Shown here: positions 11,785 to 53,919 of the stretch, one piece after another
Numbering within the stretch: the stretch's first letter is position 1
Layout: each line of letters opens with the position of its first letter
NCBI GenBank assembly: GCA_038503075.1
Contig: JBCAML010000007.1
Location: 1,550,001-1,614,000 of the forward strand
Length of the DNA: 64,000 nt
Reading direction: 5' to 3'
From: Gyromitra esculenta
Taxonomy: Eukaryota > Ascomycota > Pezizomycetes > Pezizales > Discinaceae
The notes under the pieces: generated by a model
The model's database searches: none
Told to the model about the DNA's origin: nothing
The model's input: only the letters and a program-made list of their open reading frames with translations
Made by a program: the position numbers and the translations under genes

Positions 11785-13682
11785 ATGGCCGAGACAGCAC
11801 CTTCACCAGGAATTGGTTATCCCGCTCCTATCGAAGCTCCCTCAGCTCCGTATACTAACCCCCCTGACTCGAATCCTGTGATGGCAGGATGGGCGTTGCA
11901 AGTGCTTAGTAGCGCGTAACTTCATCCCACTCACAGGTCACTCAGAAATATTATATCGTGGACTAACATTTAAGCTTAGTGTCGTCAACATCGGCCCCCT
12001 CCAAACTTTCCTCTGGAACAACGCTAATTTCGGCGCCTTACGAGCCCTCGAAGCCACTGGGGCTCTTGAATCCTATCTCCCCCGTTTCGATCCCACCGTC
12101 ATCCCTCACAGCCTTCCAGTACCTCCCCCTTCCTCCCCAGGCGCTCAGAAGTCAACCTTCCATTCTTGCACAACTTACACATCTGCCTACGCCTCCAAAA
12201 CACTCACACCCGCTGCGGTGGCATCCAAACTTTCGTATCTCCTCTCTCCACCTTCTAAACACGCATTATGCACAATCTTCCCGATGAAACCTTCCACCGA
12301 GGCCTCTGCCTCCGCATACGCATCGTCTACCCCCCGCACACCTCTCGATGGTGTACCCATCCTCGTTAAAGACGAGCTCGCAGTTGCTGGGTCTCACAAG
12401 ACCATCGGCCTCACACTTGCTGAAATGGAACGCAGAGGCGCCAACAAATCCGACGAAGGACAAACCTCTTGGTGCATACAGAAGCTAATCGACGCTGGCG
12501 CTCTCGTAGTCGGCAAGGGAAACATGCACGAAATCGGGTTCGACACTACTAACAACAACCCGAATTGGGGTACGCCTCGAAACCCCTATAACCATGATTA
12601 CTATACAGGCGGTAGTTCTGGTGGAAGCGCATATGCTGTTGCAGCTGGGTTGGTCCCGATTGCTATCGGCGCTGACGGTGGGGGTTCAATCCGACTCCCC
12701 GCGGGTTATTGTGGCATTTATGGTCTTAAACCAAGCCACGGCCGCGTATCACCCCGACCGACTCTCAGTATTGCTCCGTCAAATGGTGTAATCGGCCCAC
12801 TTGCAGCAACAATGGAGGATCTAGAACTCGCATACAGCATCATGGCGCAACCTGACCCGTCCGACACCACGTCCCGAGAATTTCCGCGCGAAGTCAAAAC
12901 GCCAGAGGACAGGCGAACAGGAAAGCGGGTGCTCGGTGTTTACGGTCCCTGGATCGAAGATTGTGACTCTAATGTTAAAGCCGCGACTCAAGCCGCAATC
13001 AAGTGGCTTCAAGATTCAGCCGGGTACGAAGTCGTGGAGATCGAACTCCCGTTGCTAAAGGAGGGTAGAATGGCGCATGCGCTCACGATTATGGCGGAGA
13101 TCGGGCAGGGATTTTGTAAAGGTGATGCGAAAGGGTTGACGCCAGCGAATAGAGTGCTTGTGGCGATTGGGAGTAGGACAGGCGCGAGAGACTTTGTGAT
13201 TGCACAGAAGATTAGAGCGCTATTGATGTCACATTTAAGCTATCTATTCCAGAAACATGGTGATGGACTGGTAGTTATAAGCCCAGTGACGCCACACGCG
13301 GGGGCGAAGATCGGGGCGGAAGAACATGTAAAGAAGGGAGGAGCGGGGGTTAGCGATACAAACTTGAGTTTGAAGAGCATGCAGCAAGTTCATCCCACCC
13401 ATCTATCCACTATGCTAGCTTCTCTAATCAGCCACGAGTTCTAGATATGTATTCCTTTCAAATTTCACTGGCTGTCCTAGTATCTCTCTGCCTTGCGGTT
13501 ATTCGGAGGAAGGGTTACCGATAGGATTAATGGGTATGGCAACGTGGGGTGCAGAAGAGACTTTATTCGAGATGGGAAGAGCTGGTGAACGGTATCTCGA
13601 GGAAGTTGTGGGGAGGAGGAAACCAAACGAAGAGGCATGGGTAGATATGATGAATGTCAGTGCTGCTCAGGATGAGAGTTAA
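11785..13682 (+). CDS. Amidase (amidase-signature family)
   Basis: Model: exons 11785-11915, 11980-13383, 13445-13682; 590 residues. Intron 1 is GTAACT...TTAG with branch CTAAC. Intron 2 (61 nt) starts with GC, not GT: it is the only in-frame join that links SMQ to YVFLSNFTGCP, which is conserved in the family. The catalytic Ser-cisSer-Lys triad is visible: Lys174 (VPILVKDE), Ser256 (GGSSGGS) and Ser280 (GADGGGSIR). GatA-like amidases hydrolyse carboxamides to acid and ammonia. The N-terminal 44 residues are Pro/Ala-rich with no obvious targeting signal. The C-terminus keeps LPIGLMGMATWGAEETLFE. The exact substrate cannot be told. No functional partner is adjacent. Confidence 0.9.
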
Positions 13683-20589: not shown

Positions 20590-21555
20590 AGTCACTCGGT
20601 CGGTCACTCGTTGGCTCGCCTGCAACAACACCTCACTTTCCTTCCGTTCCCCTCCTGTTGATTGCTGGTGCTGCGGTGCTGCTGATGCTGCCTCCCTTCT
20701 ACAACCTCCACTCTTCGCTTGCCTTTTCCCCTCGTCACCATTATCGCTATCATCAGTAGATACCTACCGGCACCGTCATCTCCTTCGTTGCCGGCTTGAT
20801 CAAACACGCGCTTGTGTGTGCGACTCCGCTAACTAGTGCTCGAATACTCACATCGTCTAACGACGGGCTTGCGACAGGCAAGAAGATCCTCTGGCCGCCC
20901 CACCCCCACCCACGACGGCAACAACCATACCACCACCTCCACCACCACCCACCACCGCCCAACTTCTCACATTACCACCACCACCACCATCACCACCCCC
21001 TCCCCTCTACTATAGTATAATCCATTTGATTCCCCTCAGTTCAGCACGCTTCTCCGGCTGCCATCCCGCCTAGCGTCTTCTCCGGCGCTCCACCCTGGCT
21101 CTCCGCGCTAGTGGATTGGTTGCTAATAACGTCAACTGGACGTCCGCCTTCTTACAAACTTAGACAACAGTAGTAGCCTGGGATCCGCCACCACTCCTCT
21201 TTAATATTTGAATTCCCATCCAGTAGCACTTCTCATCCTCCATCCAACAATCCTCTTCCCAGTCGCTGCGAACCTTTATTTTATTCTTCGCTTTCCTCAA
21301 TCACAGCAACAGCCGCCACGCCATTTCATTCCACCACTATTCTCTGTCGAGCTCTAGCCAGATCAAATCCAGCTTTCAACGCTAATATACCCTCCAATAC
21401 CGCCCACCACGGATTTCTTCAGAACACCATCCTTGAGCCCGTCTCGCTCCAACGAGAGTTACCATACAACCCCTCTTGCCACGCCGCTGCCTTCCCACGA
21501 ACAACCAACACCACCGCGGACAAGCACATCAACACCAGATCCGACATTCGATAAA
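20590..21555 (+). promoter_or_regulatory. Long C/T- and CCA-rich leader of the Sfp1-like gene
   Basis: The kilobase before the start codon is strongly pyrimidine-rich, with CAC/CCA runs near 20930-21005 and many CTTCTC patches, unlike the AT-rich DNA further upstream. Such C/T-rich DNA is usual in promoters and long 5' untranslated regions of filamentous-fungal regulators. A frame open from 21433 joins the coding frame but has no ATG before 21556. Confidence 0.5.
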
Positions 21556-23368
21556 ATGCCAGCACCAATCGACATTACCTCGCGGCCCCGGACGCATCAG
21601 CCAAAATCAAACCTTACGAGCCAGCTCCGAGCTGCTGAAGGAAATGGTTACACTTTGGAACCTGTTGGGGGACGAAGCGGTAGCATATCCCAGAGCAATG
21701 CAATCTCCATGTCGAACAAGTATCGACGAGAGAGTATAGTAAATGGTGAGATGGCACGAAGTTTAATGGGTGGCGGGGGAATGAGCTGGGGAGGTGTGAG
21801 TGTTGGGAGCTGGATACGGGATGAGTGAGTAGATATCTCTCTTTTACAATTTGGTTGCATGTATGGTGGTTTTGGCTGCATTACGGCCGGGTAGTTTGAC
21901 GGTCCGTGCATTTGAGAATTCATCTCATCTTTAGCACTGCTTCATCAGCACCGTAGCTGCTCATCGCGATGCTCATCTTTCGAGATGTCTTCTCCCCTGA
22001 CGTTGACATGATTATTTCTGAAAACGCCTATTGTAGTGGCAACGTCTAACATTTTATCTGAGTAGTATTATAATGGCAGGAACATCACCGTTCACGTTTG
22101 GTTCACCATCTTTCCATTCATCATCATATCTTCCAAAACTTGAAGCCGATTTCTGCCGAGATTTTTCTTGTTGTGGCCTCCCGCTCCCCTCTCTCCATGA
22201 TCTTCTTAGGCACTACGAAGAGCACCACGCACAACAGACAGGAATGGTACGTCGAGATGAAAATGGACCCACAGGCAGTGACTTACCTCAACAGCAATCG
22301 CAGCACCCACGACCCCAACAGCAGAACGCCAGTGGAATGACCAGCCCCATTAGTGGGATGGGTGGAATTCAACTAGGCATGATGCGGCAGCGATTGAAGG
22401 TACAGCAAGAGAATGGCGGAGATATGAAGGAGGAGAATGAAGAGCAGGATGGGGAAGTTGCTGGTGATATGGAAATGGATGATGATGACATGACCCCACC
22501 ACCTGCTCCACTTACCCCTCAGAATCACAACCAGCATACATCATACCCTCCGACCCCCACTACGCATAGCCAGCCTTCATACCAGAGCACCCCAAATATA
22601 GCTCATGCTCAACCTTCGGGTCTTGGCCAAAAGCCTTCTCACTTTTCGCCGGAATCTTCCGTCCCTGGTACCCCGCACGCTATGGACCAGCTTGAATATG
22701 GGTTTCCTCAACAAAATTCACAGGGACTATCGAATCAACAAAACATTGCTGCATATGATTATGAAATGATTGCGGGAAACATTGATCTGTGCATCAATGA
22801 ACCCGCTAAAACTCTATTCAGCCCTGGTGGAATAGCAATGGGTGGTTACACTACACAGTATCAACATATGATCAGTGCAGGTGGGAATGGTAAGATACAC
22901 ACTTCTAACAAAGATTATAGTGGTGTGCTAATTAAGGTAGGCAATTTGTTACCACAAGAAGACAAGCCTTTTAAGTGTCCCGTAATTGGATGTGAGAAGG
23001 CCTATAAGAACCAGAATGGGTTGAAGTACCATAAATCGGTATGTAGTGATCTTCCTTCTAAGATGTGTTTGTGCTAATAATTTGCCTAGCATGGTCACGC
23101 CAACCAACAGTTGCATGATAATTCCGATGGGACATTCTCAATCCTTAACCCCGAAACTTCCACTCCTTATCCCGGCACCGTTGGCATGGAAAAGCAGAAA
23201 CCTTATCGATGCGAATTCTGTGGTAAGAGATACAAGAATTTGAATGGTCTCAAATACCATAGGTCTCATACCACCCATGGAGGTTTGTCACAGCCTGTGC
23301 CTCAACCAGGGGCTGTCGTCGCCGTCGCCGGTGTAATGGGCGGAGAGAATGGCATGGGTATGGTTTAA
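21556..23368 (+). CDS. C2H2 zinc-finger transcription factor, Sfp1-like
   Basis: Model: exons 21556-21824, 22066-23038, 23090-23368; 506 residues. Introns are GTGAGT...GTAG (241 nt) and GTATGT...CTAG (51 nt, branch CTAAT). An N-terminal motif near residues 93-125 ([20 protein letters not shown]) leads into an atypical first finger (C120...H143). A Gln/Pro/acidic middle follows ([21 protein letters not shown]). Two close fingers end the protein: [21 protein letters not shown] at about 392-411, cut by intron 2, and [19 protein letters not shown] near 453-471. This order matches fungal Sfp1-type split-finger regulators, which in yeast control ribosome biogenesis and cell size in response to nutrients. 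Nuclear location and target genes are inferred. ATG 21556 is the first in-frame ATG. Confidence 0.85.
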
Positions 23369-29478: not shown

Positions 29479-31220
29479 TTTTTTTTTTTTGTTAAATCAT
29501 TGTTTCATTGTTTAATATAAATGGTACAAGAATGTCACATGCAACCGAAGTTATAGCATGAACAAAACCTTAAAAATCCTCAACCCTCCGAAAAAAACAA
29601 ACAACTTTTATAACTGAAAGATTTCCTAAACAGAGATTCCCTATTTGGCAAACAAGTGCCGTTAAAACAAATACTAGCATAGAGTAGATTAATCCTCCAT
29701 TAATTCAAAAAAATTTAAAAGAGATGAAAGAGATGATATAGAATGTAGAGAAACAGATGATAAAATATCTGATGAACCTGATGATGAAAGATCTGATAAA
29801 ACAATTTCTTTAATTGAAGGAAAATTTGTTCTTGTTTTTGAAATAAATTCAGCAAGAGCAATTAGGGATGAAATATTGTTCCAAATTGGAAAGTCTGCAT
29901 CTAGGGAATTTATAAAGGGAATAAATAAATTTCGTTCGGATGACAGCGCAAAACAATATAGAATAGCGTGAGAAAAATTTTGAAAAGCGTCACCACAAAG
30001 GAGACAAGTTGTAGGGCCATTGTGAGACCAAGAGGTATGAGCTTTGAGGTAGCTTTTGTGAGCCCTCATTTGGTGGATGCGTCTGGCCATGAATTTTGAA
30101 AATTTCATGAATGGGTGAAGTAGCATTGATGTGTGGTATGGGTAGTAATCGGGGCATGGTGCGTACGAGTCCTAATCTATGATAAGTTGGGATGTAATGA
30201 CCGCATTGCTAGCTTTGATTATCATTGCATGGTTTGGATTAAGTTTTTCCAGGATAGGACCAGAGGCACCCAGGTAGTAGTTGGCGGGGAGGAATTTCCA
30301 TGCTTCGTTTGCGAAGGAGTCAATTATAAAAGGTCAAACACGGCTTTTAGTGTTTGAGTTCCATAGTCTGGGTTTTCGGGCGCCGAGGCCTTGGAGATGT
30401 GTTCTGAGGAGAGGGAGAGGAGTGCCATCTGCTTGAAAGTTTGGGGAAAGGCATGCTGAAGCGGGGTTGAATAATACTGGTAGGGTGACTATGCGAATGG
30501 CATGGCGTCTCCTGAGGTATTGTGCAAACAGTAGCATAGGAGGGAGGGAGGATTCCCTTGTTAGGGCTCCAATATTGGTGGAAGAGAAACAATTTGTAAT
30601 CCACTTTAGGACATTATTCCAGAAGGGGTTTATTTTGTTGAGAATTGATGTAGATGGTGTGAATCCATTCATGCCATAGGAAAGAATGGGTCGGATTAGC
30701 CCCATAGCGAGTTAGCGTGCGTTATGACTAGTTAAACTGGAACCGGAAAGAGAGAGGGATTTAATAGCAAAAAAGACTTTTTGGGCCGAAGAGAGTCGTT
30801 TGAGAAAATGTGAATTAGTATTAAAATTGTAGGATAACTAGAATCCTAGCCATCTAACACATGTAAGGGGTAAAAAGTTGTGGCCATTAAGATTGATGGC
30901 AGCTCCTGGGGTAGGCGGGAGTTGATTGTGGATTGTTGTCCAATGAATAAGTTCCGTTTTGGGGATGGAGAAGCTAACTTTGATAGCATGACCAATTGGG
31001 TTAATATTGTGCACAGCTTTTTCAAGGAGCTAAGCATTCTTTCTGGATGAATGGGAAAAAACCGTGATTGCAAAATCATCAACATAAGAGAAAGTGAATT
31101 TGAAATCTTTTTGGAGATAAAGGGGAGCGACGTAGATGCAAAAAAGAAGAGGAGAAATTGGAGAGCCTTGTGGAACTCCAATGGAGATTGGTAAAAAGGT
31201 GCGAGGAGAACCTTTAAAAA

Positions 31221-32059
31221 TCTCACGGTTGAGTCCCTCATTTAAGCCCTTCAGTATCCCCAAAGGTGAGCAGTGCTACTTAAGCGGGGTAACAACACGT
31301 TCAAAGAGCGCAGTGTTTCTACAAGTTCTACTAGAGGTCTATCTCAAGGCGAGATAGAGATGACAAGGTGGACAGTGACAGCGAAGGTTCTAAGGTAGAA
31401 TCGTTTCACAGATGGAACCGGGTAATGGGTTAGGATAAAGTTGTTGGTATTTATGAAGGATTTTCTGGGGTATAATGGCTTTGTTGTTCGGTTACGTTTC
31501 GGTTGTTGTTGGATGGTTGGCTTGTGTTACCGAAAAGCGGGGTATTTAAGTGAAGAATTTTAGTTGTTTTTGTATTCTTTCTTCTTCTTTCCTTAAGCAA
31601 CGTTCTCGTTATTTTTTCCTGTATTATTGGAATACTATCACGGTTCTACCTCAGAACCCTCGCTGTCCCTGTTCACTTTGCTACTTGTATCTCGCCTTGA
31701 GATACAAACACCTTGTAGGACCTGTAGAAAACATTGCACTCTTTGAACGTGTTGTTCCCCTCGTCTAAGTAGCACTGCTCACCTTCAGGGATACTGAAGG
31801 GCTTAGTGAGGGACTCAACCATGAGAAACCGAGATAATATTCTAGCAGGTACAGCAGAAGATAACGAGAACATTGCTTAAGGAAAGAAGAAGAAGAAGAC
31901 AAAGAGCAGCCGAAATCCATAACTTAAATACCCCGCTTTTCCAACCAATGACCAAGAACCGACAACAACCGAAAACACAAAGACATTATATTAACACCCG
32001 TAACCCGTTGCAACCGCCAAGCATACTTCTAGCCCAATACTTCGTTCCGATCCATGAAA
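31221..32059 (-). mobile_element. Element E1 (type B), interrupted by E2
   Basis: Reads TCTCACGG...CCATGAAA on the plus strand, so its promoter points to the minus strand. It sits in LINE ORF2 between runs of A, so the duplication AAAA(A) is ambiguous in length. Removing it restores the LINE frame. The terminal hairpin pairs CCTTTGG with CTGAAGG by using two G-U pairs. E2 lies inside at 31404-31826. Confidence 0.85.
31404..31826 (+). mobile_element. Element E2 (type B), inside E1
   Basis: Starts TTTCACAG and ends CCATGAGA, 423 bp. The target duplication is AATCG/AACCG (one mismatch). It carries GGGGTATTTAAG as the TATA-like box, TTAAGCAACGTTCTCG, and a perfect terminal hairpin CCTTCAG-GGATA-CTGAAGG. 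Confidence 0.88.
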
Positions 32060-32482
32060 AAAAGGAGTGTGCATTCACGAGAATGTAGGAATGAAATAAT
32101 CCAAGAAGTCATATATTGGGGAATATTATGGCCGAGGAGTCTCTTTTTAAGGATGGATGGGTTGACATTGTCAAAACCCCCTTTAATATCAAGGAAGAGG
32201 GTTGAAACTTTTTTGTCAGCGGCTTGAAGAAGTTGGATGTCGTGTAAGAGTGCAGATACTGTATCACCAGTAGAAATAAGTGATAAGGATCTGCACTGAT
32301 TGGGGTGAATGAGCCCGTTTGACCAGGATTTCATGGATGGGTGTTTTGTTGGTTAGTTTGGAATATAAGTATATGGTTGCTGTGTTTTGTCGTTGTTCTT
32401 TGTGTTTCTTTGGGTTTTGGTTACAATGAGTCATATGTTGGTCAGCGAAAGATGAGATTATGGGTATATAAGCGAAGGGTGT

Positions 32483-33324
32483 TTTCACAGATAGAATCGG
32501 GTAATGGGTTAGGATGATTGTGGGTAGTTACGAAGGATTTTCTTTGGGTATAATGGCTTTGTTGTTCGGTTTCACGGATTAGGGATAAGGTCAGGATTCG
32601 GTACGACAGTTGTTATAGGTTTTGGGTTTTGTATTATAACTCTATTTTAGTTCGGTTACGTTTCGGTTGTTGTCGGGTTGTTGTCTGTGTTACGGGAAAG
32701 AGGGGTATTTAAGCGAAGGATTTCGATCATTCTTGTCTTTTCTCTTCTTCTTTCCTTAAGCAACGTTCTCGTTTACCTTCTCTTGTAATTGTTAAACACT
32801 ATCTCGGTTCTACCTCAGAACCCTCGCTGCCGCTGTCCACTTCGCTGCACTTATCTCGCCTTGAGATAGACCCCTCGTAGGACTTGTAGAAAACACTGCA
32901 CTCCTCGAACGTGTTAGTACCTCGCTTAAGTAGCACTGCTCACCTTCAGGGATACTGAAGGGCTTAACAAGGGACTGAACCGTGAGATTCGGTTATGTTT
33001 CGGTTGTTGTCGGATGGTTATTTGTGTTACGAGAAAGCGGGGTATTTAAACGGAGGATTTTGGTCGTTTCTGTTCTTTTTTCCTTTTTTCCTTGAGCAAC
33101 GTTCTCAGTTTACTTCTGTCATATCAGTTTAATACTATCTCGATTCTACCTCAGAATCCTCGCGGTCACTGTCGCTGTGAAATCCCCCTCACTGAACTCG
33201 CCTTGAGTTCGACCCCGTAGGACCTGTAGAAACATCGTATACCTTACCGCTTGACCTTTTCGTTTAAGTAGCTTTGCTCACCTTCAGGGATACTGAAGGG
33301 CTTAAACAAGGTCATACCGTGAGA
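32483..33324 (+). mobile_element. Element E4 (type B), inside E3, carrying E5
   Basis: Duplication GGTGT on both sides (32478-32482, 33325-33329). Starts TTTCACAG, ends CCGTGAGA. Outer stem GTTTAAG/CTTAAAC differs from other copies but still pairs. It reads TAGCTTTGCTCA where other copies have TAGCACTGCTCA, keeping AGC/GCT able to pair. Confidence 0.9.
32570..32987 (+). mobile_element. Element E5 (type B), inside E4
   Basis: An uninterrupted 418-bp copy, TTTCACGG...CCGTGAGA, duplication TTCGG on both sides. A good reference copy for type B: GGGGTATTTAAGCG box, GGTTC/GAACC hairpin, ATCTC/GAGAT hairpin, CCTTCAG/CTGAAGG hairpin. Confidence 0.92.
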
Positions 33325-33390
33325 GGTGTTCCCCTCTTGTTGTACTTTTTCTCCTTCTTCTCTTAAGCAACGTCTTCTATTGTCACTCTA

Positions 33391-33800
33391 TTTCATGGAT
33401 GAGTATTATTGTTGGTTGGTCTGTTAGGAGGATATGTGGCTGTTGTGTCAAGATATTGTTTGTTATGTTTCCTTTGGTTTCCATTGCAATGAGTCATACG
33501 TTTGTCATTAAAGAGATGGAATATGGGTATATAAGCGAAGGGGTGTCCCCTCTTGTTGTACTTTTTCTCTTTCTTTCTTTAAGCAACGTCTTCTATTGCT
33601 CACTCTTGTATTTCACAATACAAACCTCGGTTACACCTCGTAATCCTTCGCTGTCACTGCCTTCAAATCATCATAACTTGATCCATTCGTAGAGCCTGTA
33701 GAATCTTCGTACACACTCTCGCTGTTGGTTTCTCGTTCAAGTAGCACTGCTCATCTCGGGGGATACCTGAGAGCTTGATGAGAATCCCCGCTCTTTGAGA
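33391..33800 (+). mobile_element. Element E6 (type A), inside E3
   Basis: An uninterrupted 410-bp copy, duplication CTCTA on both sides. TATATAAGCGAAGG box near 33528. Terminal hairpin TCTCGGG-GGATA-CCTGAGA, outer stem TTCTCGTTCAAG/CTTGATGAGAA. A good reference copy for type A. Confidence 0.92.
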
Positions 33801-34302
33801 CTCTACTTGTATCTTACAAATACAAGCCAGGATTCCCACAAATCCTTCGTCGCTTTCGTGATACCTCTCGACTCATTACGCCACTACACCAATGTAGTCT
33901 CGCTGTCAGAGTCATCATAACTCCCCCTTTCCGTAGAGCCTGTGGAATTGTCGCTTAAACTCCTGTCGCTAGTTTCCGTTCAAGTAGCACTGCTCACCTT
34001 TGGGGATACCAAAGGGCTTGACGAGAACTCGCTCCTTGAGACAGGAGAGGAAACCTAGGCGTGTTGCGAAGATTCTTTCAAGAATTTTTGAGAGAGTTTC
34101 GAGTAATACAATTACTCTAAACAAAGACGGAGAGTCATACAATTCTTTATTGGGCTTTGGAAGAACAATACCGAAGGCTTTTTTAAGTTGAAGTGGATAG
34201 TATCCATAGCACACTAGTAGATTGAGTAGTTGGTGGATAATTTGCAAGTTGATGGAGTTAATTCTTTTCCAGATACTATATGGTATAGTATCAGACCCGG
34301 GC

Positions 34303-34752
34303 TCTCACGGTTGAGTCCCCCGTTAAGCCCTTCAGTATCCCTGAAGGTGAGCAGTGCTACTTAAAGGAGATATCAATGCGTTCAAAGAGTGCGGCGTTTT
34401 CTACAGGTTCTACGATGGGTTTATCTCAAGGCGAGATAAGTGCAGTGAAGTAAACAGCGACAGCGAGGATTCTGAGGTAGAATCAAGATAGTATTCCGAC
34501 AAGTACAGAAGAAGGTAAACGAGAACGTTGCTTAAGGAAAGAAGAGAAAGAGAAACAGGAACGACTGAAATCCTTCACTTAAATACCCCGCTTTTCCTGT
34601 AGTACCAACAACAACCCGACAACAACCGAAGCATAAAGACATTATCCCAATAACCAAAATATAACCGAACAACAAAGAGATTATACAACCATCCAAACAA
34701 CAATATAACCAGTAACCAGGCCACGATTCATTCCCTAATTCAATCCATGAAA
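34303..34752 (-). mobile_element. Element E7 (type B, long), uninterrupted
   Basis: A 450-bp copy in LINE ORF2 with exact duplication CGGGC (34298-34302, 34753-34757). Removing it restores the frame. Related to E15 by its start (TTTCATGGATTGA). The extra length lies in the promoter-proximal part, where an AACCGAACAACAAAG-like block is repeated. Confidence 0.92.
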
Positions 34753-36328
34753 CGGGCGCTGAGGAGCTGGAAGATGAGCTGAGAGCACTAGAGATTTCAT
34801 CGAAGTTTATCTCAATGAAGTTGCTATGAGGAAAATAGTTAGGTGCTGGCGGCGTTTCTTTCGGAGGAAAAAAATGCTCGATAAGGGTAGCAGCGAGTTG
34901 TGAAGGAGTATTCATATTGGAAAGGATAGGAAATGCTTCACTGTTGGAGGAGGTTTTGAGTCTCTTAGCTAACCATATGTCGGAAGAGGATGCTGATGCA
35001 AGAAAGGAGTTCCAGTGATTCTTTTTACATCGAGAGATCTCATGAAAATAGGCGTATTAGGCTTTTTTGACCTATTCTGACGGAGGGGCTTTAGAGCCGC
35101 AGAACCTAGATTTATGGCATCTATCGACTGAATGAAAGATTTTCCAAAGTTCAGAGAGAAGGGGTGTCCACCATTTCTTGGACCATATAGATGGTCTTTT
35201 CATGGGGGTGCATGACGTAAGCGGGAGAGTAACAAGATTTGGGGATTCAGTGAACCATTTATCGCGGTTTAGAAGAGGGATTGGGGGAGGAATTCTGAGA
35301 TTTTTAATGAGAGGGATGAGCTTTTTCTAGTCTGTTTTGGACCAGTCTGGAGAAAGGGTCAATACATAGGATTTAGGGGTGGAGAGGTGGATGGCAATGG
35401 GAATGTGATCCGAGCCAGTGGAAGGTAGGCTAGTGTTCCATTTTTTGATAAATGGAAGAATGAGTGAGTTGCCGAAGCTGAGATCGAGTACGCTTGGTCT
35501 TGAGTGGGAGTCATAGGGGAATCTTGTGAATATTCCTGGTGTGTTGAGGCATTTGAAGGATGATTGGTTTGCAGATGAATGATATTTTTCCCCTTCGTTA
35601 TATTCTTGAGGAGAAATGTTCCGGAGTGGATTGGTGGAAGGATGATTAATATTAAAATCTCCTACTATGAGAGTAGAGAGATTACGGGTAGTAAAGATTT
35701 TGGAGTGATGAATAAAATGTCCACCTGAATCGGGTCTTGATCAATTATAGATGTTTAGAATATTTATGCTGCAAGTTGATTCGTTAAAAATTGGTTTTTT
35801 GAAGGTGAGTTGGACGTTTAACATGTCATCTCTGGAGTAGTTTTCGACTAGGAAGCTAGTTTGGTAGGAGTTGCTGAAATGGATAGATATGTAAGTGCAT
35901 ACTCTGATTTTTTGGTTAGGAAGAGTAGAGGGAATAAGGAGGTGATATCTTGGTGCTTTGAGTGGTTTGCAGTTCCATAGGTATGGATCTTGGATGGAGA
36001 CAATTGAGGGAGTGGGTTTATGTGACGAAAATAAAGAATGAAAGATTTTTTAGCTTCTAGCACAGTTATGGTGTATAACGGTGAAGGGAGGGAGGCGATT
36101 GTTTTTTGTGGGAGAGAATCTAGGCATGATTATTTTGAGGACATGAAGGTATCAGCGGCTGGTATTGCTGATTTAATACTAGATTTGTCCAAGATTGTCT
36201 TGCAAGTAGGGCACTGAAGGTCGGTAGCAGTGTGATTACCGTTACAGTTAATGCAAACAGTTGGTGAGATGGGGTAGCAGTTAACGATAGGTTTATCATT
36301 GCCTCCTCCTGGGCATTTTAGGATAGAG

Positions 36329-37196
36329 TCTCACGGTTCAGTCCTTCGTTAAGCCCTTCATTATCCCTGAAGGTGAGCAGTGTTACTTAAACGAAGTTCT
36401 AACACGTTCGAAGAGTGCGATGTTTTCTACAAGTTCTACGTGGGGTCTAACTCAAAGTGAGTTAATTTCATGGATAGTTGTTTTGTTGGCTAGTTAAGTA
36501 CATAGGTATATGGTTGTTATGACTTGTTGTTGTTCTGTGTGTTTCCTTGGGTTTTCATTGCAATGAGTCATATGTCGGTCAGTGAAGGACAGGGTTATAG
36601 GTATATAAGCGAAGGGCGTTCCCCTCTTGTTGTACTTTTCCTTCTTCTTTCTTTAAGCAACGTCTTCTATTGCCACTCTACTTGTATCCTACAAATACAA
36701 GCCAGGATTCCTACATAATCCATCGTCGCCTTCGTGATATCTCTCTTTTTATCACCCCACTACATCAATGTAGTTTCGCTGTCGGAGTCATCATAATTCC
36801 TCATTATTGTAGAGCCTGTGAAATCATCGTCTAAACTCCTGTCACTAGTTTTCATTCAAGTAGCACTGCTCACCTTTGGGGATACCAAAGGGCTTGACGA
36901 AACCTCGCTCCTTGAGAGTTAAGTGCTGTGTGATTATGACAGCGATAGCAAGGGTTCTGAGGTAAAACCAAGATAGTATTCAAATAATACAGGAGAAGTT
37001 AAACGAGAATGTTACTTAAGAAAAGAAGAAGAAGAAGACAAAGAATGACTAAAATCCATCGCTTAAATACCCCACTTTTCTATACAAAGCCCAATACCCG
37101 ATAACAACCAAAAAGACAAAGACATTATCTATCATAGAGCCCATAACAACCTTCAAACAGAAACCTAACCCTGTACCTAATACTTCATCCATGAAA
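36329..37196 (-). mobile_element. Element E8 (type B), carrying E9
   Basis: In LINE ORF1, duplication TAGAG on both sides (36324-36328, 37197-37201). Own sequence 36329-36465 and 36918-37196. Outer stem CTTCGTT-TAAG / CTTAACGAAG pairs. The hairpin loop side has one decayed base. Confidence 0.9.
36466..36917 (+). mobile_element. Element E9 (type A variant), inside E8
   Basis: 452 bp, duplication GTTAA on both sides. Same variant as E3: middle hairpin ACTACATCAATGTAGT and terminal hairpin CCTTTGG-GGATA-CCAAAGG. The target lies inside the ATCTC/AACTC hairpin of E8. Confidence 0.9.
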
Positions 37197-37683
37197 TAGA
37201 GCAGCGTTGTTCGTGCCTTGGGTGATCAATGGAGCAAATAGGGCAAGTGTGGGTTAGAGCTTTACACCCAGCAGTAGCATGACCGAAACCCCAGCATTTT
37301 TTGCATTGAGTAGTAGAAAAGGCTGACCACATGATATTGGTCTTATGGGGGCAAGAAAAGAGTTTAATTGAAGAGCCAATTTTTTTGGCATCATTGGTGG
37401 AGCAGGTCTCACGGTTAGATCCTCGTTTAAGCCCTTTTGTATCCCAGAAGGTGAATGGAGCTACTTAGACGAGAATCATTGCGATAAGAGTAACGAAGTT
37501 TTCTACAGGTCCTACGTGGGTCTAACTCCAGGTGAGTTAAGTGTAAAGGTTTTCACAGCGACAGCGAGGATTCTGAGGTAGAATAGAGGTAGTATTAAAA
37601 CAATACAGTAGAAGTAAAGTAAGAACATTGCTTAAGGAAAGAAGAAGAAGAAGATACAAGCAAGCAAAACCCATCCTTTAAAT

Positions 37684-38509
37684 TTTCATGGATGGTCGTC
37701 GCGTTGTTTGGTTAATGGTATAAGCGTTTAGTCTTGTTGCCTTGTTGTTCTTTCGATATGTTTCCCTTGGCTTCCTTTACAATGAGTCATACGTTTGTCA
37801 TCAGAAAGGTGGATTATGAGTATATAAGCGAAGGGATTTCCCCTCTTGTTGTACTTTTTCTTCTTTTTTCTTTAAGCAACGTCTTCTATCGTACACTCTT
37901 GTATTTCACAATACAAACCTCGGTTATACCTCATAACCTCTCAAGGAGTGGGTTTCGCGTCAAGCTCTCAAGTATCCCTCGAGATGAGCAGTGCTACTTG
38001 AGCGAGAAACCAACAGCAAGAGTATGCACGAAGATTCTACAGGCTCTATGAATGGATCAAGTTGCGATAACTTGAAGACGGCGACAGCGAAGGATTAAGA
38101 GGTGTAATCGAGGTTTGTATTGTGAAATACAAGAGTGAACAATAGAAGACGTTTCTTAAAGAAAGAAGAAGAAAAAGTACAACAAGAGGGGAAATCCCTT
38201 CACTTATATACCAAAGTTCCAGCTCTTTCGATGACAAAGACATGACTCACTACAACGGAAACCCAAAGAAACACAAAGAACAAATAACAGAACACAACAA
38301 CCATGTACCCATGTACCTAACGAACCAACAAAGCAACCATCCATGAAATAACCTCACGCTGTCACCATCTTCAAGTCCTCTTTACTAGAACCACTCGTAG
38401 AGCCTGTGGAACCTCGTGAATACTCTCGTCACTCAAGTTTTCCATTCAAGTAGCACTGCTCATCTCGGGGGATACCTGAGAGCTTGCTGGAAAACCTCGC
38501 TCTTTGAGA
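37684..38509 (+). mobile_element. Element E11 (type A), inside E10, carrying E12
   Basis: Duplication TAAAT on both sides. TATATAAGCGAAGG is present. The outer stem TTTTCCA...TGGAAAA replaces the usual CTCG/CGAG pairing and remains fully paired. Its two halves and E12 lie in opposite orientation, so a transcript could fold into a long hairpin. Confidence 0.9.
37939..38348 (-). mobile_element. Element E12 (type A), inside E11
   Basis: 410 bp, uninterrupted, duplication TAACC on both sides. Starts TCTCAAGG and ends CCATGAAA on the plus strand. Terminal hairpin TCTCGAG-GGATA-CTTGAGA, outer stem GGTTTC...GAAACC. Confidence 0.9.
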
Positions 38510-38542
38510 TAAATACCCTGCTTTCCAACCACCTTGACTCAT

Positions 38543-38952
38543 TTTCATGGATGGATGTCTTGTTGGTTCGTTAAGTACATAGGTACATGGTTGTTGTGTT
38601 TTATTGTTGTTCTTTGTGTTTCCTTGGGTTTCCGTTACGATGAGTCATGCTTTTGTCATCGAAAGGGTTGGAACGTAGTATATAAGCGAAGGGCTTTCCC
38701 CTCTTGTTGCACCTTTCCTTCTTCTTTCTTTAAGTAACGTCTTCTATTGTTCACTCTTGTATTCTACAAATACAAAACCTCGGTTACACCTCGTAATCCT
38801 TCGCCGTCGCTGTCTTTAAGTCACCTCGACTTAAACCAATTGTAGAGCCTGTAGAATCTTCGTACGCTTTCTCATCGTTGGTTTCCCATTCAAGTAGCAC
38901 TGCTCATCTCGAGGGATACTCGAGAGCTTGACAAGAAACCAGCTCCCTGAGA
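38543..38952 (+). mobile_element. Element E13 (type A), inside E10
   Basis: 410 bp, uninterrupted, duplication CTCAT on both sides. Terminal hairpin TCTCGAG-GGATA-CTCGAGA is perfect and differs from E6 by paired changes. Middle hairpin AAGTC/GACTT. Confidence 0.92.
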
Positions 38953-38959
38953 CTCATAA

Positions 38960-39376
38960 TCTCACGGTCTTGTCTTTCGTTAAGCCCTTCAGTATCCCTG
39001 AAGCTGAGCAGTGCTACTTAAGCAAGAGATCAAGCCACAAGAGTCACAATGTTTCTACAGGTCCTACGTGGGTCTAACTCAAGGCAAGTTAAGTGTAAAG
39101 GTTTTTACAAAGACAGAGACCACGAGGATTCTGAGATAGAATCGAAGTAGTATTAAAACAATACAACAGAAGTAAAGTAAGAACGTTGCTTAAGGAAAGA
39201 AAGGGAAAACTACAAAATGATAACACCACCCTCCTTATATACCCCGCTTTTCCTTTTCGTATCCCATAACCGAACATAACCGAAAAACAAAGACATTATT
39301 ACCGAAAGAAAACCCATAACCTATGAACATTATTCTAACCAAACCCTAACCCATTATCCTTCTTCATCCGTGAAAA
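38960..39376 (-). mobile_element. Element E14 (type B), inside E10
   Basis: 417 bp, TCTCACGG...CCGTGAAA on the plus strand. The target duplication is imperfect (ACTCATA-like on both sides, with one or two extra bases), probably because E13 later landed in the left copy. It is followed by E10 sequence. Confidence 0.8.
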
Positions 39377-39579
39377 CTCATAGCCGAAATCTAACCGAAC
39401 AACAAAGACATTATAATTGAAATGTCATCCATGACAACCAATGATTCCATCCTAACTCATCACCTCATACTATCCGTGAAACATAACCAATAGCAACCAA
39501 AACACAAAGACATTATAATCCTAACCGAGATCCTATCACAACCCGTACAATATCCTTGACCCATTTACTCCATCATATC

Positions 39580-40353
39580 TGTAAGACCGGTACTTCTTAC
39601 CGCACAGGAAATCTCCAAGAAGCTTTAGATAACAATCTATATAACTTTCTTGATTCTATCCGCAACACAATCTGTGAGTCCTATCTGCTTCTTATGAACC
39701 TAAAAGATAACCGTAGGGTTCAAAGTAGGGATCAGCAAAGTTAAGTGAAGCTTCCAATAGTAAGGTTTTAATAACGCATTTGAAGAAAGCGCTAAGCGAG
39801 ATAAAAGTAATTCACAAGTAATAGAGTAAATTGCGGAAGTAATTTTCTTAGAAACAATATAATATTGATAAGGCTGTTCTTCGTCGCATTAATGATCGGA
39901 AGAAAGCCTACCAATGATAGAACATTGGATTACTTATAGTAGTCAAACGTCGAATACAAAGGCTATGTAATAACATGAACTAACGTGAAGAAATCGTAGG
40001 CGCGAGAACGCTTTCGCTTCGCTCTCTCCTCTCCGTTATCGTATGGCGTGATTGTCGGAATTAACCGTACGCATGACGTATAAGCGAATCGGGAAGTGTT
40101 GATCGAAAGAGTCGGCCATGATGACACAGGAAACCAAACATCCAATCCAGTCCATTAGTCTTTGTCTCTCCTCTACCCTTATTGCACTTCGTCGATAGGG
40201 TGAATCAAGAGCCAAGGCGACAGGTAATAGACTTAATAGTAATCAGCAAAGATTACTACTAACCGACCTGGTCGGGAATCGAACGCTAGTCCATATGTGT
40301 GCATCGTAAGCGAACTCAAGTCGTAACCAACTAAGCTACCAATAGGTATAACA
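39580..40353. mobile_element. Element R-a: solo LTR-like element inside E10
   Basis: 774 bp, starting TGTAAGACC and ending GGTATAACA, with exact duplication ATATC (39575-39579, 40354-40358). TG...CA ends, imperfect inverted termini and a 5-bp duplication are those of a solo LTR. The first 315 bp match element R-b at 40643-41845, and the rest differs. Near the right end it carries a tRNA-like segment with A and B boxes on the minus strand. No coding capacity. Confidence 0.78.
40266..40347 (-). pseudogene. tRNA-like sequence inside R-a
   Basis: On the minus strand it has A box TAGCTTAGTTGG, B box GTTCGATTCC at tRNA spacing, and ends that can pair (ACC..TGG with CCAGGT). Anticodon and T stems are poor, so it is not an ordinary working tRNA. 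It may be a captured, degraded tRNA, or an internal Pol III promoter as in SINEs. Confidence 0.5.
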
Positions 40354-40791
40354 ATATCCGTGAAAGCAGGAGATGACTACCAAGGTAGTCTTTTTTGTGG
40401 CGCAGATGGCAGCATCCGTTTTGAGGAATCTTGCACCAGTGATTTGGATATCGGCGATGTAGAGGATAACTTCTGAAAGGGTTGTTGTGTGTTTGCTGGG
40501 CTCATCCGGAAGGGCGAACGTGGAGATGTTGTGAATTGCGACGTTTAATTTGGTGGGTGCTGTACGAATAAGGTTGAATGGATTGTCTCCAATTGGGTAG
40601 CATTCATTGAGTGTTTTATGAATGGCTGAGAAATAGGGGATGTGTAAGACCGGTACTTCTTACTGCACAGGAAATCTACAAGAAGCTTTAGATAACAATT
40701 TAGACGCTATAACTTTCTTGGTTCTTTATCCATGACACAATCTGCAAGTCCTAACTGCTTCTTATGAACCGCTAAAAGATAACCGTATGGT

Positions 40792-41651
40792 TTTCATGGA
40801 TTGACTTAGAGAATGAATTGTGGTTTGGTTGTTGGTTATATTGTTGTTTGGATGGTTGTATAATTTCTTTGTTGTTCGGTTATGTTTTGGTTATTGGAAT
40901 AATGTCTTTGTGTTTCGGTTGTTGTCAGGTTGTTGTTGGTGTTACAGGAAAGCGGGATATTTAAGGAAGGATTTTAGTTTCATGGATGGATGTTATGTTG
41001 ATTGGTTAGGTACATGGGTACATGGTTGTCGCACTCTGTAGTTGTTCTTTGTGTTTCCATGGGTTTTCTGTTGCAATGAGTCATGTCTTTGTCATCAAAG
41101 AAGCTGGAACATGGTATATAAGCGAAGGGGTTTCCCCTCATATTGTACTTTTCCTTCTTCTTTCTTTAAGCAACGTCTTCTATTGTACACTTATTGTATT
41201 TTACAAATACATCCTCGGATTACACCTCGTAATCTTTCGCTGTCGCCATCTTCAAGCCATCCTAACTTGAACCGCTAGTAGAGCCTGTAGAACCTTCGTA
41301 TACACTCTTGTCGTTAGTTTCTCGTTCAGGTAGCACTGCTCATCTCGGGGAATACCTGAGAGCCTGACGAGAATCTCGCTCCTTGAGATTTAGTCGCTCT
41401 TGTTTCTCTTTCTCTTCTTTCCTTAAGCAACGTTCTCGTTTACCTTCTCCTGTACTTGTCGGAAATACTATCTCGGTTCTATCTTAGAATCATCATTGTC
41501 ATTGTTAACTGTGACTTATCTCGCCTTGAGATAGACCCATCGTAGAACCTGTAGAAAACGCTGCACTCTTTGAACGCGTTGATACCTCATTAAATAGCAC
41601 TGCTCACCTTCAGGGATACTGAAGGGCTTAACGAGGAACTCAATCGTGAGA
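40792..41651 (+). mobile_element. Element E15 (type B, long), carrying E16
   Basis: Inserted in R-b with exact duplication ATGGT (40787-40791, 41652-41656). Own sequence 40792-40977 and 41389-41651. Closest to E7. Confidence 0.9.
40978..41388 (+). mobile_element. Element E16 (type A), inside E15
   Basis: 411 bp, uninterrupted, duplication TTTAG on both sides. Outer stem TTCAGG/CCTGA instead of TTCAAG/CTTGA: both partners changed together, direct support for base pairing. Confidence 0.92.
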
Positions 41652-41851
41652 ATGGTTCAAAGTAGGGATTGAGCAAAGTTCTGTGAAGAACTTCCAATAG
41701 TAAGGTTTTAATAACTAACGCTGAAGGGCCAAGGCCTTGCTAAGCGAGATAAAGGTAATTCACAAGTAAAAGAGTAAATTGCACGGAAGTAATTTTGCTA
41801 GAAACAATATAATATTGATAAGGCTCGTTCTTCGTTGCTAATGATCTGACT

Positions 41852-43673
41852 CAGAGTTTACATCCACTGCGAAAGTATTTATAATGCCTCCTCTCTACTA
41901 TGTTTGGGTATAGTGTGGTGTAGAGGCACTAACTACTATGACAACATGAAACCACTTCGCCTTATCTCCATACCCAATACCCCATTGAGTTCCCTGGCCC
42001 CGATCCGCGATTCTCCAAGCAGTATGCATGTCAGTAACACAGGAGTTACGTATTCGTCTTCATTGTGTTCTTCTCTTCAAGGCGATCATTTCGCCTATCC
42101 GAATCCTCGTATAGCATTGCATTCCCTTATCTTTGTCAGTCTGTAACTCCGCCAGTTTTGATCCAATTCAAAATCCATTTGAACTACAGCGAAGCCAGAT
42201 GTAACGGGGGTAGTCCTACTGCTCTGTAGTGGGAATAGGTATAGGAATACGGCCGTTGCAAATACTAAATCAGGTTGAGATATTAAGAGTATTTTCGTGC
42301 AAGGTACTCAATAATCTTAAGATTTCTCTTCGGTAGTATTCTGTCTGATGAGGCCGGGAAGAAGAAGCAACAGGTGTCGGGGTCATGCACTATCTTTATA
42401 GTGCTTGTTGACTCGCCGTCCTCTTTACGTTACTACTCTGCTGGGGGCCGTCGAGGCGAGAACATGCAAGATATTGCGAGCGCACTCGAGATTCAGTAAT
42501 GATCGACTTCGGCGCTCTCCGACACTCGGTTGTTCTGTCCAGTTAGACCTTCTTGATCCGCCAGCTGCATGCCATGCCTATCTTGGATGTAGGAATCGGC
42601 GATCGATCTCTTGTTGCGTGTGAGGTGTCTGCACTTAATAGATTCCCTATTGCTGCAGTGGCTCAGGCGCTAGTATATGCGTAGATGAATTGGAAACGCC
42701 ACCACAGGAGCTTCCTGTGTTTGGTGTCAGAGATATATCGTTGGCTTGTCAGCAAATGTTATTCTCGTTGGTTATTCAATCGAACGAGGTAGCAGGTATC
42801 ATACAACGTGTGATATTTCACACCATGCTGATCCTTACTACCTCTCTGCTTGTCCGGTGCTATTATGCTTCACTGCAGGTAACGGTATTGTAGATCCGTT
42901 ACACCAGACACTTCCCCTACATACCCTCCGGGACAGGTTTTTTCTGGTGCTGTCCCCCCTTCTCCAAATACTATACCTACTGGAAGGATTGGAGGCAGGG
43001 TAACAGGCTCCAGTCCCGATCAGGAAGGTGCTAAAGTAGGGTAACCCCAAAGATAGGGTAACTCCAGGGCCAGGAACTCCTTCAAAAGGCACAGGTATAA
43101 CAGAAGAATCCAGCAAAATCAATAGGTATAGAAAATAATATTCTAATAAACATCAGCATCAAGGAAGGTATTGGTTTTCTCACTAAATAGTAGGACCTCT
43201 CTCACAAATATCATTCAGAAGTGGAAAGAAAAGAGAAACGGGGGTGAAGAAGTACATGTAGAGCTTATGATTATTATCGTCCTCTAAGATTCGAGGTGAG
43301 AAAATATCACTACCGAAACAAACTATAACTAGTATATCAAAACCATTCGGCTCCAGAAAAACAGAAAACAAAAACAGAAACTCCAAAATCCTGAATACTG
43401 ATACCGCAAAATTATCATACTATTCCCACATAATTTCGAGCAAAACTGACCACATGACATATATACCACAAGAGGAGAAGACCAAATCAGAGGGTATCGA
43501 AAATAGAAACTTTATAGCATCCTACCATTGCCTAAAAGACACCAACGAAAAAAAAAATTGAAGAAAGAACACCCTTGTTCCGGACGTTTCGAACAAACCT
43601 GAGAATCCAGAGCCCCGAGCGCACAGTCCTACCAAATAACAACCAGTGAAACTTAGCCTTCACCTCAGCAGCG
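41852..43673. other. Unassigned DNA next to the mobile-element cluster
   Basis: No gene recognised. On the minus strand a TATAAATAC box near 41878 could be the promoter part of R-b. A Pro/Gly-rich minus-strand frame at 42838-43122 has no known relatives that I can name. One TACATGTA at 43253. The last 100 bp are probably the 3' untranslated region of the next gene. Confidence 0.35.
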
Positions 43674-51394: not shown

Positions 51395-53919
51395 ATGCCT
51401 TCTCTTATGCCTCTCTTGTCTTCAAGTTCGAACACGGTTTCTTCGACTCCGGCTAGCTCGAAAAGGGCTCCGAAGAAGCTCCGTCGCAAGAACCCCCCAC
51501 CTTCGTTAAGCACGAGCCATCAGAAACTCCCATCTTCTGCAGGTTCCTCCACATATGACCTTCCAAAATCAAGACCTTCTTCGAGCAAGTCTTCCCGTAG
51601 TCTCAATAACGGAAATAGCTGGTTTGCTTCTCCTCCAACTCCACACCCAACTACTAGCACAAACGGAAGGAGAAAGAGTGAACCTCAGGTTGATTGGTCG
51701 CCGGAAGAATTCCCTTTCAGACCACCACCCTTGCCAGTATCAGGAAACGGAATGATGACACCCCCAGGGTCTGGTTCCCCAGACTTGGGGCATCGGAATC
51801 CACAGGGGTTGCAAGAACAGCACCACAATCTATCTCCATCGGGATCCACTGCGTATAACTCACCACTTGCGCTATCGAAGCAAGCAAGCTCCCCGATAAA
51901 ACAAACATTGATATCGCCACCTCCCCAGATGGTCAGAGGGAAGGGTAAAGATGCGTTCAAGGCATTCTCATACGATTCATACAATAATATGCCCGTCTCC
52001 CCACCACCGCAATCCCCACCACCCAATTCTATTCCACCGACATATCTCGGGACCGCCCAATACCCCAACAACTTGATCCAGCAACCACCAACACCGAAAA
52101 GAGGGCAAACTTTCCCTACGCCGTTAAATACGAACTTAGCACCACCGACTGCCACACAGCTGAACTTGATGGGCCGCACACCGAATGGTTCGCCCATTCT
52201 TCCGCCTCTACCTTCGTTTCAATCTGGCGGGTTCGGTTTTGATTTACCGAATACTAATACTAATGATCAATTTGCAAAACCTAAAGTTTCACCAACGTAT
52301 CCGGGCCGTCAACGCTATAAGCCAATATCACCGCCGCTTCCGTCTCCAGAGGCACCTCCAGTTCCGCAAAGACGTAGACCGACGGTGTTCATGGAGCCGG
52401 AAACGCAATCGCCTGTGTTAGATTCGCCCTTGATGGAGTCACCTTTGGTGCAATCGCCAGGTGATTACATATTCCACGCTCTGACTGCTGAGGAACCAAT
52501 CGCCCTCCCGTCATCTGCCGAACAAACACCTGAGCCATCTCCTCCTACGGTCAGTGCAGAATTCACGCAAGCACCAACAAAAGGTCGTGCCCGTAGGAAG
52601 TCTGATGTAGTAAGCTCCTTCCTTGGTGGATGGAAGCTAGCAATGATGGGCGGCAGCAATTTAAGTGCAAACGCAACTGCGAACAATGATAAAGTGACCG
52701 GCAGCAGCGAGAGCGATGCGCCACCGGTCGGTGTTGGTGATGGCGGCGGATGGATTCACAGACGCAAAGGAAGCTTTTCGAGTACTCGTCCACCCAGTAG
52801 GGAGAAATCGAAGCAAAGCGCATATGCACAAGAATACAAGGAGTTTCGAGCGCAGAAGCAGGCGGAAAGTGTGTCGTCATCGAAGACATCAAAGAGGTCA
52901 TCAGCGGCAACATCGAAAGAGGGCAGTCCGGCCACTAGTCCTGTTGATGGGACGGGCGTTAGTGCGATATTAGGGAACTTGTCTACGAGGGAACGGTTTG
53001 GGGAGAAGATGAAAGCGGTTGAGTTACGGCACACGAAGCGAGATAGTGAAGATAGTATCAAAGCTAAAATCCAACCGGTAAATGTTCATCCGGCGGGTGT
53101 TGAACCGGCGGAGATCGATGGGAGTGAGGTTGTAAGCTTAGATGTAGCTGTGAGGCAGATGAATCTGTTAGAGGAGCAGCTGAAAACAAGAAGACCTCTC
53201 AGTCCGCCAGATTCAAGGGATGGAGAAAAACCTGCCCCTGTTGGAGCCGGTGAGAGTGATAAAGGGTATCACGCAGGTTCGGAATATAGTCTTACAAACA
53301 CGACTACAAGTACCCCACAAAACTCACGACATAATTCGGCTCAGAATTCAAGCACTTCTTCTCCTGCAGGCAGCATAAATCAGAAATTTCAGCCTCCCCG
53401 CCCACCACTAGCGAAACGGGGAACTACTGAGTCCATGGGCAAGGGGAAATCTCGTTCTCCACTACGAAACGAAATCGACTCTGATAGTGTTTCTTCTGGT
53501 TCCGAGGATAAGAAACGAGAACGTTCCAAAAGCTCATCAAGACATTCTGCAAACTCAGTGCAGGCACCGCCTTCGGAGTACTTGGGTAGACCGAAAAGCT
53601 CAGGTACAGGATTGGAGAGCACACTAGAGTCAGGATCACGGCCACCGACGCCACCAAAGCCGATTGCAAAACTGTTTGTAATCTGCTGTAGGTGTAAGTA
53701 CTGGCATGATTTGCCAAGTGTCATGTATCGTGGGATGGTGGAGAATGGAGGTGCGACCAGGTGCCCGTATTGTTTGCACGGGATGGAGACATCGTGTTGT
53801 TCAGGGTACTTTTCCCCTTCTCACTCCAAATTACTAGAACACAAAGCTAATTATGGGATTCTAGTTATACATGTGTGGTTTATATGCACCAGAAACATCA
53901 TGGGCCTCCACTAGCTTAA
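51395..53919 (+). CDS. Long disordered protein with a C-terminal Cys-rich zinc-like motif
   Basis: Model: exon 1 51395-53805, intron 53806-53864 (59 nt, GTACTT...CTAG, branch GCTAAT), exon 2 53865-53919; 821 residues. Reading through the intron gives a slightly shorter, unrelated tail. Splicing gives CCSGYTCVVYMHQKHHG, which matches the conserved GYxxVVYxxEK-like ending of this fungal family. The first 750 residues are Ser/Pro-rich, low-complexity and basic near the start (RAPKKLRRKN), with many SP and PPxP sites and no membrane segment. A short conserved patch lies near 410-425 (VVSSFLGGWKLAMMGG). The C-terminus has Cys764, 765, 767, then Cys790, 793, 801, 802, probably a zinc-binding treble. 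The family is conserved but uncharacterised in ascomycetes as far as I know. No function is claimed. Confidence 0.8.

Follow-up and report, generated by a model that had tools for sequence, protein, structure and literature searches.

The 64,000-nt stretch of the Gyromitra esculenta genome analysed here (the window; positions 1550001–1614000 of contig JBCAML010000007.1, in a genome of 47.1 Mb and 23 contigs) carries, between 31221 and 41651, 16 copies of a repeat named element E. Element E is the long terminal repeat (LTR) of a chromodomain-bearing Ty3/gypsy retrotransposon, and the evidence supports a conserved RNA fold under selection in its copies. This fold very probably belongs to the 5' untranslated region of the element's RNA and self-primes reverse transcription, a trick of a known kind. 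A first-pass annotation of this DNA had described the copies as a conserved structured RNA, and missed both the LTR nature of the element and the pairing of its RNA with its own leader; element E is explained without a new kind of RNA.

All 16 copies, which had been reported with stems varying in pairs, were located with the quoted stems present in their sequences, and several proved to be truncated or interrupted by other copies. Each has a U5 arm, a structure at the unique 5' (U5) end of the LTR, exemplified by copy E3 (32913..32987, plus strand), where it comprises an outer stem, the GTAGCACTGCTCA block, a hairpin with the loop GGATA, and the LTR end CCGTGAGA. Fifteen of the arms contain GTAGCACTGCTCA with at most two mismatches, while the 16th (37407–37479, minus strand) is more diverged and still alignable; the block also occurs, with 1–2 mismatches and without the remaining element, at 21223 and 47927. 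No part of the element's interior was found in the window by comparison with the internal regions of two copies, and the window copies are therefore solo, nested or truncated LTRs. Seven of them are flanked directly by 5-bp duplications, and four more (E5, E8, E11 and E16, the last three across an inserted copy) by duplications read partly by eye.

Identity of the retrotransposon

A genome search with one copy of element E returned copy pairs spaced ~5.45 kb apart. At all seven paired loci (L009–L015; spacing 5.4–5.5 kb) a direct repeat of 409–447 bp is present, the longest direct repeats there extending beyond the LTR itself, and the interior of L009 has Pfam matches to Retrotrans_gag, RVT_1, RT_RNaseH, Integrase_H2C2, rve, SH3_Tf2-1 and Chromo. 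It is the spaced pairs, the direct repeats, and the gag, Pol and chromodomain coding between them that identify element E as an LTR. The LTR termini read TTTCAYGG...TGAGA in most copies, with boundaries fixed by 5-bp target duplications, which were read at the junctions of all seven loci (GTATC, CCACG, AAGGC, CTACG, ACAAC, CGAGA and CTACC, respectively). For the reverse transcriptase (RT), the two best sequences in the Protein Data Bank are 4ol8 (labelled RT/RNase H) and 7q5b (Ty3-G Gag-Pol); the best named homologue among the matches listed is from Podosphaera aphanis (67%), and RT homologues do not place the element.

The U5-arm pattern, at up to two mismatches, has 2,555 matches in the genome and none for a reversed control, and viral contigs gave no match to a U5 pattern. 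Copies of three families, A, B and C, are considered below; in a comparison of one LTR per family, A and B are 49% identical in the unique 3' (U3) region and 63% in the repeat and U5 (R-U5) part. In L009, L010 and L051 a purine tract, GGGGGG or AGGGGG, is followed by (C)TAC and then by the 3' LTR; the plus-strand primer site seems to be offset by 3–4 nt, and L051 appears to retain TAC at its 5' junction.

Putative self-primer and primer-binding site

Directly behind the 5' LTR come TT and ACGTTGCTT in all three families, A (L009–L013), B (L051) and C (L053 and others). ACGTTGCTT is the primer-binding site (PBS) in the interpretation developed here. Beginning 2 nt behind the LTR, it is complementary to AAGCAACGT within the LTR, the putative self-primer, which in copy E3 lies at 32758..32766, 52 nt past the start of the TATA box, and finds its PBS partner in full-length copies. 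A search for the LTR end, ten free bases and the leader motif gave 349 genome matches and none in the control, with ACGTTGCTT kept in 96 of 100 among the matches listed.

The pairing was surveyed in 75 aligned full-length 5' ends. Fifty-seven of these derive from 67 PBS-like matches, 60 of which were distinct and had enough upstream sequence, after three had been dropped (L022, a chance match; L073, with a damaged primer; L077, truncated); the other 18 are 20 family C loci minus L096 and L111, which are without an intact primer end. As the rows were fetched by similarity to queries combining the LTR end and leader, damaged copies are under-represented among them. The primer:PBS match is perfectly Watson–Crick in 61 of the 75, includes one G-U pair in seven and one mismatch in six, and has two mismatches in a single copy. 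In 76 of the 80 copies with a TATA box (85 distinct copies examined, five without), this box starts 50–53 nt upstream of the primer, and the 24 nt preceding the primer are, at the median, 92% pyrimidine. A methionine transfer RNA (tRNA-Met) at 1392–1463 begins with AGCAAC, a hexamer that AAGCAACGT also contains, probably by chance.

A conserved fold spanning LTR and leader

The first-pass annotation had proposed that the last 60 bases of each copy fold alike. This is real, and these bases are only the U5 end of a fold of ~230–240 nt that lies partly outside the element. Within the 16 window U5 arms, aligned over 19 pairs, 88.7% of cells are paired, against 27–64% in controls with slid partner columns. 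Both sides have changed at 13 pairs and the covariation score is 0.443, compared with 0.236 ± 0.021 in shuffles; none of 500 shuffles reached the observed paired cells, both-side changes or covariation score. Further pair types show no excess (24 versus 23.6 in shuffles, 265 of 500 reaching the observed number). The inner hairpin is 97.3% paired; pairing drops to 83.6% in the outer stem, where several of the middle pairs include unpaired cells.

For the 75 full-length 5' ends, 56 pairs were named on a family A reference copy, covering the primer:PBS helix with a 4-bp extension, two upstream hairpins (P2 and P3), the outer stem and GGAUA hairpin of the U5 arm, and a long-range LTR:leader helix. 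In 94.7% of cells these pairs form, as opposed to 34.6–45.5% when the partners are slid by 1–3 columns; double changes occur at 25 pairs, and the covariation score is 0.259, where shuffles give 0.124 and slid partners no more than 0.080. Pairing reaches 96.2% in the primer:PBS helix with its extension, 98.9% in the GGAUA hairpin, 97.1% in P2 and 94.4% in P3, in keeping with the earlier proposal that the upstream hairpins covary. The GTAGCACTGCTCA block and GGAUA loop are strongly conserved.

Because the copies share history, changes of both partners were counted on the branches of a tree. Over 30 variable pairs there are 33 such changes, while a null in which the partner was swapped for a column that changes about as often gives 6.0 (standard deviation 2.2, maximum 13 in 1000 draws). 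Standard pairs stand both before and after in 27 of the 33, which are distributed as seven in P2, ten in P3, six in the GGAUA hairpin, six in the outer stem, four in the LTR:leader helix and none in primer:PBS. The test keeps the relatedness of the copies, and both the proposed selection on the RNA fold and covariation above the phylogenetic background withstood it, in a home-made stand-in for R-scape rather than R-scape itself.

Unguided, RNAalifold recovers the LTR:leader helix, both upstream hairpins and the GGAUA hairpin. Of six copies folded singly, five have minimum free energy (MFE) structures closed by the 9-bp primer:PBS helix; z scores for MFE folds closed in this way are -3.2 and -3.5, compared with -1.7 for the antisense strand and +0.1 for U3. 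The single-stranded state earlier assigned to the invariant block is uncertain, most MFE models placing a 3-bp mini-hairpin, AGC/GCT, in GTAGCACTGCTCA.

The LTR:leader helix is formed by GTAGRR-NN-TGTAGA in the LTR and TCTACA-NN-YYCTAC in the leader, just beyond the PBS; its 12 bp are 99.2% paired in the 75 copies, three of these pairs having changed on both sides and never on one side only. On a tree built without the columns of this helix, pair 147-289 has gone from A-U to G-C three times, with both sides changing every time. Within family C, on the same leader background, GTAGGA occurs with TCCTAC and GTAGAA with TTCTAC. Both long-range motifs are present in 56 of 60 rows, four being without one or both, and match each other in all 56. 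Damaged states among the 75 are GTAGAG with CTGACC, GTAGGA with TCCTAT, ATAGGA and CTAGAA, one each.

Searched with Rfam, the whole window contains only three tRNAs at gathering score, and the element's fold is without a match. A relaxed search (up to E 5) of 30800–42200 gave a single match, to a microRNA family, which scored 30.5 bits where the cut-off is 100. A known ribozyme (hammerhead, hepatitis delta virus (HDV), twister or others in Rfam) was considered and rejected, as no Rfam model matched. The first-pass annotation had likewise recognised no hammerhead, HDV or twister, and its hint at self-cleavage finds no support, no ribozyme family having been matched.

Copies in the window and their surroundings

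Many of the window copies are nested: E2 in E1, E5 in E6, E9 in E8, E12 in E11 in E10, and E15 in E16. Most of them have 5-bp duplications, and the family may preferentially insert into its own LTRs or into the chromatin at this place. E1 (31221..32059, minus strand), with its U5 arm at 31221–31290, is split by E2, its LTR similarity covering 31221–31403 and 31850–31939; its far end was set by eye, and its duplication is A-rich and ambiguous. E2 (31404..31826, plus) starts with TTTCACAGAT, has the primer motif at 31595 and is flanked by AATCG/AACCG, with one mismatch and the second flank read from the sequence. E3 occupies 32570..32987 (plus; duplication TTCGG; primer motif at 32758) and is followed by E4, a partial LTR with an undefined 5' end (33021..33324, plus). 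E5, a B-type LTR (33391..33800, plus; duplication CTCTA, second flank from the sequence; primer motif at 33581), is inserted in E6, a 5'-truncated B-type LTR of which the R-U5 part is present (33329..34041, plus). E7 lies at 34303..34752 (minus; GCCCG; primer motif at 34533).

Further along, E8 (36329..37196, minus; CTCTA, far end by eye) has received E9 (36466..36917, plus; GTTAA). The diverged E10 (37407..37683, minus, the part traced up to E11) is interrupted by E11 (37684..38509, plus; TAAAT, by eye), into which E12 (37939..38348, minus; GGTTA) is inserted. E13 (38543..38952, plus; CTCAT) and E14 (38960..39481, minus; TTATG; primer motif at 39191) follow, and E16 (40792..41651, plus; ATGGT; primer motif at 41425) contains E15 (40978..41388, plus; TTTAG; primer motif at 41168).

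A second retrotransposon family, represented by a copy termed L115, has left pieces among the E copies and next to them, which are 86–98% identical to it (39572–39775, 39854–40148, 40232–40359, 40643–40792, 41654–41728 and 41804–41846, by similarity). TACA is the LTR end of this family, and the LTR part examined showed no self-primer. Inside one piece, at ~40260–40350 on the minus strand, is a tRNA-like stretch with sequences resembling box A and box B by eye, which is called a tRNA by neither ARAGORN nor Rfam. Elsewhere in the window, open frames at 22073–23077 (334 codons) and 51395–53914 (839 codons) have no Pfam match at E 0.001. An amidase gene at 12218–13444 has its closest named counterparts in Morchella sextelata (72%) and Tuber (68–69%; Tuber magnatum 69%), the best match overall reaching 88%, and this one gene makes a host in the Pezizales probable.

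Proposed mechanism and known systems

We infer that the element's RNA starts at or just ahead of AAGCAACGT, behind the TATA box and pyrimidine tract. P2, P3, the U5 arm and the two long-range helices would lay the 5' end of this RNA onto the PBS, ACGTTGCTT, and the LTR:leader helix would lock the priming complex as a pseudoknot. By analogy with Tf1, the element's RNase H would then cut after the primer, which RT would extend into U5. Gag or RT may recognise the GTAGCACTGCTCA block and GGATA loop, or these may be used in dimerisation.

The leader is laid out like the Tf1/sushi "pretzel", which serves self-priming of reverse transcription, and element E is, by this analogy, a new member of a known mechanism. 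As described in the parts of PMC10085805 compared, the Tf1/sushi 5' untranslated region forms three duplexes, the self-primer:PBS and two that join PBS-adjacent sequence to the LTR; the same self-priming logic is given for Tj1 in the corresponding parts of PMC4600332. The group (Tf1, Tf2, Tj1, Tosmo1–3 and Tcry1) shares with element E a Ty3/gypsy Pol with chromodomain and a PBS complementary to an upstream LTR segment (same parts of PMC10085805 and PMC4600332). The primer:PBS and PBS-downstream duplexes of the pretzel are both present, the latter as 12 bp, whereas the PBS-upstream duplex is here only 4 bp. Fission-yeast Tf elements, moreover, have LTRs always ending CA (PMC10085805, in part), while those of element E end GA, as fixed by the 5-bp duplications. 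Element E differs further, as far as those descriptions go, in its covarying P2 and P3 and in a U5 arm whose GTAGCACTGCTCA and GGATA hardly vary, and the arm is not among the Tf1/sushi features they give. The pretzel structures of PMC10085805 were found, according to the part compared, by visual inspection of predicted folds, whereas covariation backs the fold of element E. A working like that of Tf1/sushi is held more confidently than membership of the Tf1/sushi clade.

Self-priming has also been predicted more widely. Tcn1-clade plant chromoviruses and TAR copia elements are predicted to have a PBS complementary to the LTR and no tRNA, on the basis of a match of at least 10 bp (PMC6317226, in part); they share the LTR-complementary PBS with element E, and the part of that paper examined mentions no conserved fold. 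Tf1 is the element on which self-priming was established; beyond it, in the parts of papers compared, self-priming is inferred from complementarity and predicted folds. No title or abstract found in a literature search, whose coverage mostly lay outside subscription papers, names the fold of element E. The primer match of element E is 9 nt long, and that of Tf1 11 nt. A U5-IR stem-loop is said to have been described by Lin and Levin in 1998 for Tf1 and retroviruses; like the U5 arm it is a stem-loop that lies within U5 and ahead of the PBS, the comparison being one of position.

Competing explanations

Several observations weigh against the self-priming interpretation or parts of it. The primer:PBS helix has no double changes and does not covary, and its role therefore rests on complementarity, position, conservation and precedent; by our arithmetic, the chance that a 40-nt leader matches the LTR over 9 bp at some point is ~5%, and that it does so at the exact place observed ~0.15%. 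RNAalifold puts a 3-bp hairpin in place of this helix, as a nested fold cannot hold both the primer:PBS and LTR:leader helices, and in L046, the sixth copy folded, a PBS mutation cuts it to 6 bp in the MFE fold. The neighbouring UCUC/GAGA helix has only 4 bp, lacks its first pair in 26 of 75 copies, mostly of family B, and shows no covariation. The TATA-to-primer distance of 50–53 nt is long if transcription starts 25–30 nt from the TATA box. In the 75 copies the outer U5 stem is only 84.9% paired, with up to 32 copies unpaired at one middle pair, and further pair types are not in excess (55 versus 54.1, reached by 213 of 500 shuffles). All evidence on fold and covariation comes from one genome.

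Packaging, dimerisation and translation signals occur in the leaders of retroelements, and it is conceivable, if improbable, that the fold serves one of these functions while priming falls to a tRNA or a fragment of one; by eye, the invariant block contains a near-palindrome, AGCA-C-TGCT, through which two RNAs could pair. Priming by tRNA is countered by the start of the leader, which is without the TGG that would pair with the CCA end of a tRNA, and by the longest runs matching the PBS complement, of 6, 3 and 5 in the three window tRNAs (the only ones compared) against 9 in the LTR. A comparable leader–LTR match is also absent from L115, of a different, related gypsy family whose RT is ~54% identical to that of element E: the 40 nt at the start of its leader have no match of at least 8 nt in 479 nt of its LTR, which is possibly 5'-incomplete at the locus edge. 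At a further locus, L116, an LTR pair was not found. Retrozymes and Penelope-like elements, with their hammerhead ribozymes, share with element E a structured RNA in the terminal repeats. As in these, the U5 arm or the entire fold might be an unrecognised self-cleaving ribozyme, in keeping with its nearly invariant loops within covarying stems, which resemble a catalytic core. This is highly improbable, since the Rfam searches gave no ribozyme family at either threshold, and a self-contained ribozyme would have no need of the covarying helix that lies outside the LTR beside the PBS. Equally hard to credit is that common descent within a few subfamilies, with no selection on the RNA, accounts for all the paired changes. 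Many double changes do split family B from A and C in one step (49 versus 26, or 48 versus 25, sequences), but concerted changes recur on the tree well beyond the null, five times at pair 113-127 and three times at 147-289, and A and B are less alike in U3 than in R-U5.

Self-priming by the fold is thus preferred, and within it a more specific role for the U5 arm can be suggested, tentatively and as something rather unlikely: the arm would be a dedicated module read by Gag or RT that switches the RNA from messenger to self-primed template, with the LTR:leader pseudoknot as the lock. If true, the fold would be no passive scaffold but a priming switch sensed by protein.

Implications

The tRNA-primed and self-primed readings differ in the joint that they predict, minus-strand strong-stop DNA being linked to AAGCAACGU if the element is self-primed. 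With 2,555 U5-arm matches and 349 LTR–leader junctions, this one genome amounts to a natural mutation experiment, in which the 75 junctions show which contacts of the priming complex persist through paired changes and single out the nearly invariant block of U5. The resulting model, backed by covariation, could serve to seek self-priming elements in other genomes.

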